Shown here piece by piece: positions 8,189 to 13,618 of a DNA stretch of 64,000 nucleotides. The first letter of the stretch is position 1; every line of letters begins with the position of its first letter. The notes beneath the pieces were generated by a model, which worked only from the letters and a program-made list of their open reading frames with translations, was not told where the DNA came from and did not search any database. The stretch covers positions 1,362,003 to 1,426,002 of the forward strand of contig NC_012438.1 of the NCBI RefSeq assembly GCF_000021545.1, written 5' to 3'. This stretch comes from Sulfurihydrogenibium azorense Az-Fu1. Lineage in GTDB: Bacteria; Aquificota; Aquificia; Aquificales; Hydrogenothermaceae. The position numbers were made by a program, and so were the translations under genes.

Positions 8189-9031
8189 TTACTCTAAATT
8201 AAGGGATTTTTTCATTATCTCTACAGGGGCTTTTTGACCAGTCCAGATTTCAAATGATTTTGCACCTTGATAGATAAGCATAGGGAAACCGTTTTGATGC
8301 TTGCAGCCTTTTTCTTTTGCAACCTTTAAAAGTTTTGTTTCTTTATAGATTATATCAACAACTATATGGGAGTCTTTTAATAAAGAGTAATCAAAAAGTG
8401 GAAAATCTTCATCGTTTAAACCTACAGAGGTTGTATTAACTATTATATCTACATTGTTTAAAAAACCTTCAATATCTTGCAAAGATATAGGAGTTATGAT
8501 TTTATCAATTATCCTAAAATGGCTTTTATACTCTTGTATAAGGTTGTATACCTTTGGGAGAGTTCTGTTTGCAAGGTAAATTTTATCTACATTTTCTCTC
8601 AATAAGCCATAAACAACAGCTCTTGATGAACCACCTGCACCTATAACTAAAACTCTTTTATCTTCTAAATTGGGTTCTAACTCTTTTAACCCTTCTACAA
8701 ATCCAATCCAATCAGTGTTGTAAGCTATAAGATAGCCATCTATGTTTTTTATTGTGTTTGCAGCTTTTATAATTTTGACTTCTTCTGAAAGTTCGTTAAC
8801 GTAATTAATTACATTTTCTTTATGAGGAATTGTGATATTTACACCAGCTATTTTTAACACTTTTAAAGATTCTACAGCTTTTTCTAAATCGTTGGGATTT
8901 ACTTCAAAGGGAACATAAACTGCGTTTATTCCAAGATGTAAAAAAGCAGCTGTTTGAAAAGTTGGAGATTTTGAATGTTTAACAGGATAACCAAATATAC
9001 CGTAAACTTTTGTCTGTCCGTCTAAAATCAT
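8189..9031 (-). CDS. aroE: Shikimate dehydrogenase
   Basis: A 280-residue enzyme that reduces 3-dehydroshikimate with NADPH in aromatic amino-acid synthesis. The shikimate-binding SKSP lies near residue 20 (GYPVKHSKSPTFQ). The catalytic Lys and neighbours are in GVNITIPHKENV, and NTDWIGF is the conserved Asn-Thr-Asp. The NADP fold shows VIGAGGSSRAVVYGL, with NTTSVGL after it. Its ATG overlaps the stop of nfu as ATGA, so it is translationally coupled to the Fe-S operon although it has no direct role there. Confidence 0.95.
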   Translation of the reverse strand: MILDGQTKVYGIFGYPVKHSKSPTFQTAAFLHLGINAVYVPFEVNPNDLEKAVESLKVLKIAGVNITIPHKENVINYVNELSEEVKIIKAANTIKNIDGYLIAYNTDWIGFVEGLKELEPNLEDKRVLVIGAGGSSRAVVYGLLRENVDKIYLANRTLPKVYNLIQEYKSHFRIIDKIITPISLQDIEGFLNNVDIIVNTTSVGLNDEDFPLFDYSLLKDSHIVVDIIYKETKLLKVAKEKGCKHQNGFPMLIYQGAKSFEIWTGQKAPVEIMKKSLNLE

Positions 9032-9282
9032 ATAATCTGGTATTTCTCTTCACCTATGTTTACAGCCTTAACCCAAGGTAGAGACTCTTTTATAGTGTAA
9101 ACAACAAGGTCTTTCATAGTCATATCTGCTACAGGACAAGTTTGGCAAGTTCCATACAGTTTTAAAAACACTTCGTCGTTTTCAATTTTTACTAAATCTA
9201 TCTTTCCTGCATCTGCCATAAGAGCTGGTCTAATTTTTTCTAAAACTTCTTTAACTTCTTGTTCTTTGTCTTCAATAACCAT
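9028..9282 (-). CDS. NifU C-terminal-domain (Nfu) Fe-S carrier
   Basis: An 84-residue single-domain Nfu protein. Nfu proteins bind a [4Fe-4S] cluster between two subunits through a CxxC pair and pass it to target enzymes. Here the pair is in GTCQTCPVADMTMKDLV, and the N-terminal half has the usual IRPALMADAGKI pattern, with DAG where DGG is common. It has a good SD (GAGGTGG), sits 10 bases after the DUF1858 gene and overlaps aroE by four bases. The company of iscU, mrp and an IscS-like gene supports a role in cluster delivery. Confidence 0.88.
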   Translation of the reverse strand: MVIEDKEQEVKEVLEKIRPALMADAGKIDLVKIENDEVFLKLYGTCQTCPVADMTMKDLVVYTIKESLPWVKAVNIGEEKYQII

Positions 9283-9291
9283 AATACCACC

Positions 9292-9513
9292 TCAATGTTT
9301 ATTAACGGTTTTATAAAACTCTTGAATAATTTTTTCTCTATCTTCCTCGGGCAAGTTTAAAAGCTTTAAAGCACCCATCAAACTTAATTTTCTAAATAAA
9401 ATACCATCTAACTTTTCTTCATAAAAATAACTTAAATAAGGCTTAAACTTTTCTTCAAGATAGGGATAATGTTTAAATATATCAGAAATTTTACTTTCTA
9501 AGTTTAACTTCAT
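9292..9513 (-). CDS. Small DUF1858-like protein
   Basis: A 73-residue helical protein without Cys. The pattern, an N-terminal SKISDIFKHYPYLEEKF, a central turn, then LSLMGALKLLNLPEEDREKI, resembles the DUF1858 / ScdA N-terminal fold, which is often found near hybrid-cluster, nitrosative-stress or sulfur-carrier genes. It starts at an ATG preceded by AAGGTG embedded in the end of tusA, three bases away, so it is co-expressed with the sulfur relay genes. The function is unknown; a small adaptor for the relay is a guess from context. Confidence 0.6.
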   Translation of the reverse strand: MKLNLESKISDIFKHYPYLEEKFKPYLSYFYEEKLDGILFRKLSLMGALKLLNLPEEDREKIIQEFYKTVNKH

Positions 9514-9515
9514 TT

Positions 9516-9749
9516 TTACACCTTTCTAATGTAAAAATGATAAACGCCGTCTTCTTCTTTATAGCCTAAGTATTCATTACCTGTCGTTTGACACCAAGCG
9601 GGTACATCTTGAATAGCTCCTTCATCGTCTGCAAGAAGTTCTACAATCTGTCCTTTTTCTGCTTTTTTCATAACTTTCGCAAGTTCTGTTATAGGAATTG
9701 GACAGTAAGTTCCAGTTGCATCATGGACTATGTCTGGTTTGATTTCCAT
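9516..9749 (-). CDS. tusA: TusA-family sulfur carrier
   Basis: A 77-residue TusA/SirA-like protein. These proteins accept persulfide sulfur on the Cys of a CPxP motif, here GTYCPIPITELAK near residue 17, and hand it to thiolation or sulfur-oxidation partners. The rest fits the family two-layer fold (GQIVELLADDEGAIQDVPAW). I choose ATG at 9749: the GTG at 9764 would have no SD, while GGAGG stands 8 bases before the ATG. It overlaps the end of the PP-loop thiolase gene by about 22 bases, implying coupled translation. Confidence 0.87.
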   Translation of the reverse strand: MEIKPDIVHDATGTYCPIPITELAKVMKKAEKGQIVELLADDEGAIQDVPAWCQTTGNEYLGYKEEDGVYHFYIRKV

Positions 9750-10777
9750 AAACTTATCCTCCACTGGTTTAAAGTTTCATCGTCAAAAGGTATTCCAGTT
9801 AAAATCTCTTCATTATTATACTTAACATCTATTTTTCCATCAACAGTTTTTGAGTATCGAGCTATTATATTTGCTATTATCTGCTTATCATCTTCATCTA
9901 AGGTGTTATCATGTAGGGGTTTTGCTATTGCTACTGGACCTTTTCCAATTGGTTCAAAGTAAGGGTATCTATTTAAAAATCCAGATAAAAAGTTATTTTC
10001 TCCTTCATTCCTTGATACTATTACTTTAGTCCCTGAATCTAATCTAAAGTGTCTTCCTACTGTAAACAGTATTAAATCTTCTTGGGTTATCTTTCCTTCA
10101 ACTTCCATAGTTTCTCTATATTTATGGGCATAATTTTCATCTGTAAGATAGCAACAACCCCCCGCTGGAGATTCAAACTCATCTATACCTAACTCTTTTG
10201 CAAGCTCCAACTGTCTTTTTCTACTTCTTCCTACTATACCTTCTAACTTTTCTCTATCTACCCAACCTTTTATCTCTGGGATTGTTGGAGGCAGTCTCTT
10301 AGCTGATAATGGTCTAAGTATCAATCCTTCTAAACCAGAATCTCTCTCTATTATTTTCATAGGTATGGACTTTTGACTTTTAGGTCTTTGTCCTAAAACT
10401 TCTCCGGATATTATAAAATCAGCTCCGATTTCTTCCATTATCTGTTTGGCTTTTTTAAACATGTATATTCTACAGTCTATACAAGGGTTTATGTTTGCTC
10501 CGTATCCATATTTAGGATTAAGGATAACATCCATGTATCCGTCAGAAATATCTACTATTTCAAGGGGAAAACCATACTTGGCAGCGTACTTTAAAGCAGG
10601 GTTCATATAGTGAGTTCCATCTTCTTTCTTTTCTCCCCTTCTTCTTTTTGTTTCTGTTATACAAAAACCTGTGTAAAAGTGAACTGCTAATATATCTATA
10701 CCTTGATTTTGAATGAGCCTGATAGCGAGAGTGCTATCAAGCCCACCAGAGTATAATGCTACTGCTTTTCTTTTCAT
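9728..10777 (-). CDS. PP-loop tRNA thiolation enzyme (ThiI/MnmA-like) with NFACT-R-like tail
   Basis: A 349-residue adenylating enzyme. The ATP-binding PP-loop is LYSGGLDST near residue 10. NPCIDCRIYMFKKA (CxxC, about 95-110) and GEVLGQRPKSQ follow, as in tRNA thiouridylases of the MnmA/ThiI/TtcA group, and a further Cys pair is in SPAGGCCYLT (about 205). The C-terminal third has GRHFRLDSGTKVIVSRN then EN, resembling the NFACT-R RNA-binding domain, while a THUMP domain is absent. It probably activates a tRNA base and inserts sulfur from TusA or an IscS/IscU-type donor. Its start overlaps iscU as TAATG. The exact base modified is not evident. Confidence 0.72.
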   Translation of the reverse strand: MKRKAVALYSGGLDSTLAIRLIQNQGIDILAVHFYTGFCITETKRRRGEKKEDGTHYMNPALKYAAKYGFPLEIVDISDGYMDVILNPKYGYGANINPCIDCRIYMFKKAKQIMEEIGADFIISGEVLGQRPKSQKSIPMKIIERDSGLEGLILRPLSAKRLPPTIPEIKGWVDREKLEGIVGRSRKRQLELAKELGIDEFESPAGGCCYLTDENYAHKYRETMEVEGKITQEDLILFTVGRHFRLDSGTKVIVSRNEGENNFLSGFLNRYPYFEPIGKGPVAIAKPLHDNTLDEDDKQIIANIIARYSKTVDGKIDVKYNNEEILTGIPFDDETLNQWRISLWKSNQT

Positions 10778-11241
10778 TATCCTATATGTTCTAAAGATAC
10801 TGGTGCTTCTTCTTCGTGGTCTTCTTCTATACAGTCTGGTATTTTGCTTGCTTCTTCTACTCTACCTTGTTTTAAGAGATAGTCTTTTATAGCAACATGG
10901 AGAGTTTCAAGTCCAAGGTTTGTACAGTGTATTTTTTGTGGTGGTAATCCACCAAGTTCTTCAAATATCTCTTTGTAAGTTAAGTTTAGTGCATAGTCTA
11001 TAGGCTTTCCTTTTACCATTTCAGTTAAAACTGAAGAAACAGCTATAGCAGATCCACAACCAAACGTTTTAAACTTAACGTCTGTAATTATATCTGTGTC
11101 TTTATCCACCTTTATAGTAAACAACATAGCATCACCACAAGATGGATTACCACACTGACCGTATCCATCTGGATTTGGTATTTCTCCCAAGTTTCTTGGA
11201 TTCATAAAGTGATCCATCACTTTTTCTGTATATTCAAACAT
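10777..11241 (-). CDS. iscU: IscU Fe-S cluster scaffold
   Basis: A 154-residue scaffold on which [2Fe-2S] clusters are assembled. The three ligand Cys are in GNPSCGDAML, FGCGSAIAVSS and IHCTNLGLETL, and the ligand-region Asp is present (CGDAM). The tail (about 125-154) is acidic. It has SD GGAGG nine bases from the ATG. It follows the IscS-like gene by 73 bases, which hold a hairpin, and overlaps the PP-loop gene by one base. A full set of ligands in IscU contrasts with the degenerate PLP site of the neighbouring IscS. Confidence 0.95.
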   Translation of the reverse strand: MFEYTEKVMDHFMNPRNLGEIPNPDGYGQCGNPSCGDAMLFTIKVDKDTDIITDVKFKTFGCGSAIAVSSVLTEMVKGKPIDYALNLTYKEIFEELGGLPPQKIHCTNLGLETLHVAIKDYLLKQGRVEEASKIPDCIEEDHEEEAPVSLEHIG

Positions 11242-11281
11242 CTTACTTTACCTCCGATTTATTTTAAGTTATAATATTTCC

Positions 11282-11308
11282 TTTTTATCATCTTTCCAAT
11301 GATAAAAA
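11282..11308 (-). promoter_or_regulatory. AT-rich hairpin between iscS-like gene and iscU
   Basis: TTTTTATCAT and ATGATAAAAA form a 10-bp inverted repeat with a 7-base loop in the only real gap inside this operon. It could be an attenuator or an RNA-processing or stability element that changes the ratio of IscU to IscS. Being AT-rich it would be weak at high temperature. Confidence 0.4.
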
Positions 11309-11314
11309 TCACTT

Positions 11315-12523
11315 TTACTTGAATTTTGAAGCTTTCTTTGTAAAGTCTTCCCAGTTTTCTGGGTTGAATGGAGATATTTCCCTTAATCTTGCAATAACTT
11401 TTGGATACTCTTCAATGATGTAATCTATATCTTCTTCTGTATTATCTCTACCAAGAGAGAAAACTATTGACCCGTTAGAAGCTTCCTTTTCTACTCCTAT
11501 AGCAGCTAAAACGTGGGATTGTTTTAGTGCATAAGAAACACAAGCTGAACCTGAAGCTGCATAAGTTTTTTTGATGTTTAACATAAGAAGCATTGCTTCT
11601 CCTTCTATGTACATAACAATTAAAGATAAATGGTTTGGAAGTCTTTTTTCTGGATGTCCTGTAAATTTTATGTGAGGTATTCTTTCCTCAATACCTTTCT
11701 TTAGTTTATCTCTTAGATATCTTAACCTGTTTACCCTATCGTCCATCTCTTTGATAGCAAGTTCTGCTGCTGCTCCCATACCTACTATGCCAGGTACGTT
11801 TTCTGTTCCAGCTCTTCTACCACCTTCTTGTATTCCACCTTCTATAAGAGGTTTTAACCTTATACCTTTTTTAACGTATAGTCCACCTACTCCTTTTGGT
11901 GCATAGAAGTAATGTCCTGTAAATGAAGCCATATCAAGTCCCCAGCCTTCTACGTCAACTGGCATATGTCCAACTGCTGCTGCAATATCAGAGTGGAAAA
12001 CTACTCTTGGATTCTTTTCTTTAACAGCTGCTACTAAAGCTGGCATATCTTGAATTGTACCAATCTCTCTGTTTGCAAATCCCACTGATACAAGTATTGT
12101 GTCTTCTCTAACAGCATCGGCTAACTTTTGTGGGTCTATTATTCCGTACTCGTCTGGTTGAACTTCTGTTATTTCAAATCCTTCTTTTTCTAAGGTTTTA
12201 CAAGAGTGTAAGATAGAGTGATGCTCTATAGCTGATACTACTATATGTTTTCCTCTTCTTCCTGGTGCCTTTGCAAATCCTTTTATGGCAAGGTTATTCG
12301 CTTCTATTGCTCCAGATGTGAAAACTATATCATCAGGATTACTTACATTTAAAAGCTCTGCTACCTGCTCCCTAGCTTTGTTTATTGCTTTTTTAGCCTC
12401 TATTCCCATCTCGTGTAGAGATGTAGGATTACCAAACTTTTCTTTAAAGTATGGCATCATGGCTTCTATGGCTTCATCACAAACAGGTGTTGTAGCTAAA
12501 TGGTCTACATATATTCTTCTCAT
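11315..12523 (-). CDS. IscS-like cysteine desulfurase lacking the PLP lysine
   Basis: A 402-residue class V aminotransferase-fold protein clearly homologous to IscS/NifS. The sulfur-accepting Cys is present (C328 in ASGSACVSY), as are GGIQEGGRRAGTENVPG and the His of AIEHHS. The PLP site is eroded. The motif normally SFSGHK reads SFTGHY, so Y205 replaces the Schiff-base Lys. The VNNEIG motif reads ANREIG, the GAT motif reads GAI, and the DATQ motif reads DIAA. It probably cannot act as a normal desulfurase but may still bind IscU. Archaeoglobus IscS is a known case with Asp at the Lys position. SD AAGGAGG and operon position show it is expressed with iscU. Confidence 0.88.
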   Translation of the reverse strand: MRRIYVDHLATTPVCDEAIEAMMPYFKEKFGNPTSLHEMGIEAKKAINKAREQVAELLNVSNPDDIVFTSGAIEANNLAIKGFAKAPGRRGKHIVVSAIEHHSILHSCKTLEKEGFEITEVQPDEYGIIDPQKLADAVREDTILVSVGFANREIGTIQDMPALVAAVKEKNPRVVFHSDIAAAVGHMPVDVEGWGLDMASFTGHYFYAPKGVGGLYVKKGIRLKPLIEGGIQEGGRRAGTENVPGIVGMGAAAELAIKEMDDRVNRLRYLRDKLKKGIEERIPHIKFTGHPEKRLPNHLSLIVMYIEGEAMLLMLNIKKTYAASGSACVSYALKQSHVLAAIGVEKEASNGSIVFSLGRDNTEEDIDYIIEEYPKVIARLREISPFNPENWEDFTKKASKFK

Positions 12524-12535
12524 AATAGCTCCTCC

Positions 12536-13618
12536 TTACGTTAAACTGAGTTTTCTAATAATTTTTTCTGCTATATTTATAAACTCTTTTGCAGATTGAG
12601 AGTCTTCTTTTGCAAATACTATAGGTATTCCAAGGTCAGAAAACTCTGCAACTTTTGGTTCTATAGGTATTTTACCTAAAAGTTCTACTTCATAGGTTTT
12701 AGCAATTTCTTCTGTTTTACTTTTACCAAATATTTCATAAACTTTTCCACTGTCTGGACATACAAAGTAACTCATATTTTCAACTACTCCAAGGATTGGA
12801 ATTTGTACTTCGTTAAACATCTGTATTCCTTTTTTAACGTCTATAAGAGCAACATCTTGAGGTGTTGTAACTATAACAGCTCCATCTATTTCAGCTGTTT
12901 GACCAAGGGTAATCTGTACGTCTCCTGTTCCAGGTGGTAAGTCTATAACTAAAAAGTCTAAAGGTTCTTCTCCCCAATCTACATCAAATAAAAACTGGGT
13001 AAGAGCCTTGAATAAAACAGGACCTCTCCATATAACCGGAGTATCTTCAGATGGTAATAAAAATCCTATTGACATTACTTTTACGCCGTGAGCTTCGGGA
13101 GCTATAATCTTATCCCCTTCTGGTGTCTGTCTTGCCATAACTTTTTTATCTTTTGCTCCAAACATAGTTGGACCACTTGGACCATACATATCAGCATCTA
13201 AATACCCTACGTTATATCCTAACTTTTTTAAAGCAGATGCAAGGTTAACAGCTACAGTTGATTTACCTACACCACCTTTACCAGAAGCTACAGCTATAAC
13301 CTTTTTTACATTAGGAATTCTTCTTCTAGATTCAAAAGGATTAGCTTGTGGTGGAGGAGGTGGTGGCTGTGTCTGTCTTTGGGAAGGTGGTTCACTTGAA
13401 AACTCAACTTCTACTTTTTCAGCTCCAATTGACTTTAACGTTTTTTCTATCTTTTCTTTTAGAAAGTCATGATATTTTTCACTTGGAGAAAAAACTTTGA
13501 TGTAAACATTATTCCCATCTATCTTTAAATCCTTCATTAAGTCAGCTATAGAAAAGCTTACTCCTATTTCTTGTAGTGTTGTTCTTTTTAATGCATCAAT
13601 TACTCCTTGTAATGCCAT
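12536..13618 (-). CDS. mrp: Mrp/ApbC-type Fe-S cluster carrier ATPase
   Basis: A 360-residue P-loop ATPase of the Mrp/NBP35 family that carries [4Fe-4S] clusters to apoproteins. Residues 1-75 resemble a divergent DUF59 domain. A proline-rich linker (about 80-105, with a run of six Pro) leads to the ATPase with the deviant Walker A SGKGGVGKST, then DADMYGPSGPTMFG and DLPPGTGDVQ. The usual CxxC region reads YFVCPDSG, so only the first Cys is kept; some Mrp proteins have this change, and it may alter cluster binding. It is the first gene of the Fe-S/sulfur operon, 12 bases before the IscS-like gene. Confidence 0.88.
   Translation of the reverse strand: MALQGVIDALKRTTLQEIGVSFSIADLMKDLKIDGNNVYIKVFSPSEKYHDFLKEKIEKTLKSIGAEKVEVEFSSEPPSQRQTQPPPPPPQANPFESRRRIPNVKKVIAVASGKGGVGKSTVAVNLASALKKLGYNVGYLDADMYGPSGPTMFGAKDKKVMARQTPEGDKIIAPEAHGVKVMSIGFLLPSEDTPVIWRGPVLFKALTQFLFDVDWGEEPLDFLVIDLPPGTGDVQITLGQTAEIDGAVIVTTPQDVALIDVKKGIQMFNEVQIPILGVVENMSYFVCPDSGKVYEIFGKSKTEEIAKTYEVELLGKIPIEPKVAEFSDLGIPIVFAKEDSQSAKEFINIAEKIIRKLSLT

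Follow-up and report, generated by a model that had tools for sequence, protein, structure and literature searches.

A lysine-less IscS conserved in the Aquificales as a probable partner of IscU in sulfide-fed Fe-S cluster assembly

Introduction

Can an IscS protein that has lost the Schiff-base lysine of its PLP site still serve in the assembly of Fe-S clusters? Cysteine desulfuration is usually regarded as the obligatory sulfur source for ISC assembly. The question is raised by a stretch of 64,000 nucleotides from Sulfurihydrogenibium azorense Az-Fu1 (the window; bases 1,362,003-1,426,002 of a 1,640,877-base single-contig genome), in which an iscS-like gene at 11315-12523 on the minus strand encodes a protein with Tyr at the position of the Lys. 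This Lys-less protein and its orthologs in the order are together called the Aquificales IscS below. It belongs to the class V aminotransferase fold and sequence family, as judged from its Pfam Aminotran_5 match (1.2e-73) and from PDB fold matches, and to a known kind, the Lys-less IscS, with precedents in Archaeoglobus fulgidus IscS and Methanosarcina IscS1. The A. fulgidus protein has no desulfurase activity because the Lys is replaced by Asp, and one of its Cys residues is a ligand of the [2Fe-2S] cluster on IscU; Methanosarcina acetivorans IscS1 also lacks the catalytic Lys, and a role like that of the A. fulgidus protein has been proposed for it (PMC7585200). In E. coli without iscS, Fe-S synthesis is restored by H2S, whereas a strain without iscU is not rescued (PMC13015791). 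The initial annotation of the window suggested that the protein may be a persulfide or scaffold partner that no longer uses cysteine. This is still the best-supported reading, although the case is less singular than was implied, because the change is order-wide and an ortholog from the Aquificaceae is already in the PDB.

The altered active site

The gene is an uninterrupted frame of 402 codons without internal stops, and aaggaggagctatt, a strong Shine-Dalgarno sequence, lies directly 5′ of the ATG, as the initial annotation had noted of frame and translation signals. A promoter scan did no better than shuffled sequence. The AlphaFold2 model of the protein is of high confidence (pLDDT 92.3, pTM 0.91), and residues 328-332, the Cys loop, are the sole segment with pLDDT below 50.

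In the alignment with E. coli IscS, Tyr205 (codon TAC, 11909-11911, minus strand) falls on the Schiff-base Lys K206, and the motif SFTGHY, read earlier against SFSGHK, also carries Thr202 in place of S203. Since at least two base changes are required to turn AAR into TAC, a single sequencing error could not create Tyr205. Three further motifs (GAI, ANREIG and DIAA) had been listed as altered, and the substitutions are there, all on the minus strand: Ile73 (12305-12307) at the PLP phosphate position T76, Arg152 (12068-12070) at N155 and Ala182 (11978-11980) at Q183. The first A of ANREIG, on the other hand, is ordinary, ANNEIG being the reading in most canonical relatives, and the unusual residue of this motif is R152. 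The earlier list was also incomplete, as it overlooked Val354 (11462-11464, minus strand) at the position of Arg354. In class V desulfurases Arg354 binds the substrate carboxylate, and its loss is as telling as that of the Lys. The residues retained are Cys328 (codon TGT, 11540-11542, minus strand), the persulfide or cluster-ligand cysteine of the mobile loop, His101 (E. coli H104), Asp179 (D180) and His204 (H205). The protein thus carries the mobile-loop catalytic Cys of a functional desulfurase and lacks the Schiff-base Lys and the N155, Q183 and R354 contacts. Its NCBIfam scores (474 bits for TIGR03402 with a cut-off of 530.75, 384 for TIGR02006 with a cut-off of 643.2) are non-diagnostic, because L001, the canonical desulfurase of the same genome, likewise stays below the desulfurase cut-offs.

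Conservation in the Aquificales

Orthologs were surveyed in 136 genomes of the phylum, covering the Hydrogenothermaceae, the Aquificaceae and three other families of the same class (f3-f5). Identity to the window protein is 81-99% in the Hydrogenothermaceae and 62-69% in the Aquificaceae. The Lys position is occupied by Tyr in all 38 distinct Hydrogenothermaceae sequences and by Leu in all 40 from the Aquificaceae, which answers the earlier suggestion to look for fixation of the Tyr and rules out a loss private to the window genome. N155, Q183 and R354 are gone in 78/78 distinct Aquificales orthologs and retained in 107/107 Lys-bearing homologs, a pattern of site loss that lies far outside chance. 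Arg replaces N155 in both families, Ala or Pro replaces Q183, Val replaces R354 in every ortholog, and Ile stands in all 78 where the Lys-bearing homologs have Thr or Ser at T76. Cys328 is retained in 78/78 orthologs and in all Lys-bearing homologs, bearing out the statement that this Cys is kept.

Canonical IscS has 96 conserved positions, of which 21 are altered in one or both families; the altered ones cluster at the PLP/substrate site and around the Cys loop. G148, I73, R152, T202 and V354 are fixed in the Aquificales IscS. The dN/dS values of the window gene against its relatives are 0.012-0.043, consistent with a constrained protein that shows no decay. No match to the Aquificales IscS was found in 18 sampled genomes of the families f3-f5.

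IscU follows the same distribution: among genomes of the Hydrogenothermaceae and Aquificaceae with a completeness of 95% or more, 58 of 59 have it, against 0 of the 18 f3-f5 genomes. In the window it is a 154-residue protein (10777-11241, minus strand; Pfam NifU_N 1.9e-51), in which the three Cys noted earlier (C35, C62 and C106) are indeed present. Together with Asp37 and His105 these ligands are invariant in 48 homologs, as is an N-terminal Tyr. Two additional Cys are invariant in both families, Cys30 in the motif GQCGNP and Cys137 in the IPDC of the acidic C-terminal tail; E. coli IscU has no equivalents of them.

Relation to other Lys-less and canonical proteins

The best PDB matches of the model are the D199K mutant of A. 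fulgidus IscS and the A. fulgidus IscS-IscU complex (TM 0.89-0.91 by query, 44-46% identity), so that the parallel drawn in the initial annotation holds for the fold as well. A. fulgidus IscS (4EB5, 4EB7, 4HVK; D199K mutant 4R5F) resembles the Aquificales IscS in fold, in the loss of the Lys and, as proposed here, in working with IscU. The sampled archaeal phylum holds a Lys-less clade of this kind with Asp in the motif SSND, in which Q183 and R354 are also gone and Cys328 is kept. As expected of this kind, the Aquificales IscS is accompanied by an IscU with its ligands kept, as seen from co-occurrence and ligand conservation. The A. fulgidus protein differs in having Asp instead of Tyr or Leu, Asn in place of His205, no Arg at N155 and a retained Thr76. 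M. acetivorans IscS1 is archaeal and belongs to one of three IscSU pairs, the others providing residual cysteine desulfurase activity. Canonical IscS/NifS proteins (E. coli IscS; L001) share the fold, the Cys328 loop, His104, Asp180 and His205 with the Aquificales IscS, but retain K206, N155, Q183 and R354 and, in E. coli, have cysteine desulfurase activity.

In a tree built with the active-site columns masked, the Tyr and Leu forms of the Aquificales make up one clade (support 100/100), and a second clade (100/98) holds the archaeal Asp sequences. The two stay apart both in the unconstrained tree and in the bootstrap trees, but the AU test does not reject the grouping of all Lys-less sequences in one clade (p = 0.18). 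Two separate losses of the Lys with the same collateral losses would be a better reading than a single origin, though not a proven one.

A sequence search of the PDB adds seven entries (9WEP, 9WER, 9WEW, 9WF8, 9WFB, 9WFE and 9WFY) for one Aquifex-type ortholog of 406 residues. The aligned part of 9WFY is 100% identical to L121, the ortholog in genome G001, whose identity to the window protein is 68%, and 9WFY is apparently the wild type. Like the window protein, it is without the Lys, Q183 and R354 and keeps the Cys, and its gene adjoins mrp; unlike the window protein it has Leu at the Lys position and Pro at Q183, and its gene is not beside iscU. The other six entries are variants in which the changed sites are substituted back stepwise, up to nine of them, with Lys, Asn, Gln, Arg, Thr and Ala and, in 9WEP, also Met, Val and Ser. 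None of the seven turned up among the matches in a Foldseek copy running to 8 April 2026, and a recent date is therefore probable for them. The Lys-less phenomenon has thus already been recognised by others in an ortholog; a full-text literature search found no paper behind these entries or on Aquificales IscS.

These comparisons bear on whether the protein could still bind PLP non-covalently and desulfurate cysteine slowly by means of another base or another lysine. The contacts for ring stacking (His101) and for the pyridine nitrogen (Asp179) remain and the fold is intact, as such an activity would need. It is nevertheless very improbable, since K206, Q183, N155, T76 and Arg354 are lost jointly in every ortholog, and the less altered A. 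fulgidus protein is reportedly inactive (PMC7585200). The PDB variants, with up to nine back-substitutions each, likewise suggest that one change is insufficient. Because the Lys, Gln183, Asn155, Thr76 and Arg354 are gone together, the loss of PLP-dependent desulfurase chemistry from the Aquificales IscS is strongly supported at the level of sequence, and the protein would be expected to carry out no PLP chemistry in vitro.

Lys-less NifS-like copies and the Arg152 pocket

A second NifS-like protein without the PLP Lys is encoded in four Aquificaceae nif clusters (L175, L176, L177 and L178; e.g., L176:4739-5932(-)), where the motif at the Lys site is SFDGPSL. A further nif cluster holds another such protein with the motif SFAGHY (L165:2157-3353(+)). 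The Cys at the C328 position is retained in these copies (SSPC, TPC or NSPC), and their neighbours are nifV, an aldehyde-ferredoxin-oxidoreductase-like gene and nifB, the last of which was found in four of the five clusters and not in the L177 stretch. All five copies have Arg at the N155 position, which suggests that they arose by duplication of the Lys-less IscS. Outside the Aquificota, an IscS of Candidatus Endomicrobiellum pyrsonymphae (Elusimicrobiota; L062:4986-6257(+)) has Val instead of the Lys, with Ser replacing Q183 and Leu replacing R354, and keeps the Cys; the same genome has a Lys-bearing copy. A quick tree placed the Val form with the Aquificales sequences, but on a long branch, for which reason nothing is drawn from its placement.

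The constancy of Arg152 invites the thought that the PLP pocket has been put to another use, with Arg152 near Asp179 and the Tyr or Leu closing it or binding another ligand (sulfide, polysulfide or a metabolite) through which IscU would be regulated or supplied. R152 is fixed in 78/78 orthologs and shared by all five copies from nif clusters, and G148, I73, T202 and V354 are likewise fixed. The archaeal Lys-less clade has no such Arg, which makes R152 specific to the Aquificales lineage. The same pattern would arise if an abandoned pocket had drifted and then been stabilised by packing, and a new function of the pocket is regarded as doubtful.

Other sources of sulfur in the genomes

The search for a second, complete desulfurase that had been proposed as a check gave a positive answer for the window genome. 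This is L001 at 1,595,919, just downstream of leuS, which retains SISGHK, the Gln at Q183 and the Arg at R354. The presence of this intact canonical enzyme could be taken to mean that the Lys-less gene is a pseudogene, a sequencing error or a decaying duplicate whose job is done by L001. That idea can be practically dismissed, and is ruled out by the occurrence of the same residues in about 100 genomes, by the low dN/dS values and by the two-base change in the Tyr codon. Moreover, the copy that is usually missing is the canonical one. Among the 51 Hydrogenothermaceae and Aquificaceae genomes at least 98% complete (20 and 31, respectively), a second, Lys-bearing desulfurase is found in 17/20 of the former and in only 3/31 of the latter.

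No Lys-bearing IscS/NifS/SufS was detected in 31 of these 51 near-complete genomes, 10 of which are single-contig. Their remaining PF00266 matches, with values of about 1e-30 or weaker, are comparable to the aminotransferase-like match in the window genome. Compensation by a canonical copy consequently fails as a general explanation in the Aquificaceae, where such a copy is missing in 28 of the 31 near-complete genomes. SUF is likewise ruled out as a backup, as SufB was found in 0/51 genomes of the two families; it is present in the 14 f5 genomes. MnmA is retained in 49 of the 51, and a source of persulfide or sulfane sulfur must therefore remain.

Two observations concern the wider set of genomes. 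Genomes of the families f3-f5 (e.g., G114-G135) have neither an IscS-type match nor IscU, and those of f5 encode a short SufB-type protein, one copy each and two in G120, so that the phylum falls into two parts, one with a Lys-less ISC and the other with a SUF system of minimal size. In one member of the Hydrogenothermaceae (G083:C1:1692834-1693954) the canonical second desulfurase matches as two pieces of 280 and 126 aa in different open frames, possibly a frameshift or an ongoing loss.

Gene neighbourhood

The gene order in the window is mrp, iscS, iscU, a ThiI/MnmA-like gene, tusA, nfu and aroE. Directly upstream of iscS lies mrp (12536-13618, minus strand), encoding a Mrp/ApbC/NBP35-type Fe-S carrier ATPase. 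On the other side of iscU follow a 349-residue ThiI/MnmA-like ATP-pyrophosphatase with an NFACT-R_2 domain (9728-10777; Pfam ThiI 1.1e-10, tRNA_Me_trans 1.3e-8, NFACT-R_2 1.5e-16), a TusA-like sulfurtransferase of 82 aa (9516-9764; TusA 1.6e-23) and an Nfu protein of 84 aa with the NifU C-terminal domain (9028-9282; NifU 3e-21), all on the minus strand. The product of 9728-10777(-) reached no NCBIfam cut-off and is possibly an uncharacterised tRNA thiolation enzyme. No iscR, iscA, hscA, hscB or fdx was seen within 8189-13618, and the description of the locus as an intact isc-type operon was too strong for what is a minimal mrp-iscS-iscU set. The mrp gene adjoins iscS at all examined loci but L149, a 3-kb contig; linkage of iscU to iscS is confined to some Hydrogenothermaceae, and in the Aquificaceae the two genes are not adjacent. 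A gene similar to the ThiI/MnmA-like gene of the window also adjoins iscU in the Aquificaceae.

This neighbourhood brings up the main rival to a ligand or shield role of Cys328, namely that the Cys accepts sulfane sulfur from TusA, a rhodanese, polysulfide or L001 and passes it to IscU and to the ThiI/MnmA-like protein, the use of cysteine being dead. Such a relay would account for the full conservation of Cys328 and its mobile loop, for the presence of tusA and the ThiI/MnmA-like gene in the same gene run, for the ThiI-like gene beside iscU in the Aquificaceae and for the retention of MnmA even where a Lys-bearing desulfurase is missing. The equivalent Cys of A. fulgidus is reported to be a cluster ligand instead (PMC7585200), and the C328 loop is altered in all orthologs (S323A, T329V, S332A and P335Q), which could mean that the loop has a different role. 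The relay is judged rather unlikely.

Proposed role

The Aquificales IscS is probably a catalytically dead desulfurase that has been kept as a Cys328-bearing partner of IscU in sulfide-fed cluster assembly. That Cys328 and IscU have been retained, and that selection on the gene is purifying, points to a function within the IscU complex. The IscS dimer would join IscU, which offers three Cys, an Asp and a His, in a complex of the IscS2-IscU2 type, where iron and inorganic sulfide, abundant in the habitat, would give a [2Fe-2S] cluster on IscU. Cys328 of the flexible loop would act as the fourth ligand or shield the cluster as it forms, in line with what is reported of A. fulgidus; onward transfer would fall to Mrp or Nfu. 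The complex itself is predicted, Cys328 is more plausibly a ligand than a sulfur carrier, and sulfide is the presumed sulfur donor by analogy with the precedents and from the habitat.

Several facts sit uneasily with this proposal. The window genome has L001, and clusters there could still draw on cysteine sulfur. In the Aquificaceae iscU and iscS are unlinked. The TusA and ThiI-like neighbours suggest a sulfane-sulfur traffic that sulfide alone does not explain, a persulfide source is needed as long as MnmA is retained, and the machinery is minimal besides the two flanking carriers.

Conclusions

The distribution of the Aquificales IscS is wider and cleaner than described in the open literature searched, and its order-wide fixation, the lack of an alternative desulfurase and the Lys-less NifS in nif clusters are possibly new. 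The chances appear about even for the broader picture, in which both families build their Fe-S clusters by means of a sulfide-fed dead IscS, most Aquificaceae do so without any IscS/NifS/SufS-type desulfurase or SUF, some carry a Lys-less NifS in their nif clusters and the Arg152 pocket may have a new role. With neither a Lys-bearing IscS/NifS/SufS nor SufB in the 31 near-complete genomes, the ISC system with the Lys-less IscS is the only recognised Fe-S route there. The retention of MnmA raises the question of where the sulfane sulfur for tRNA thiolation originates. If the broader picture is true, the scaffold or ligand role of IscS would be separable from its role as an enzyme, and sulfide-fed assembly would become testable in culturable bacteria.
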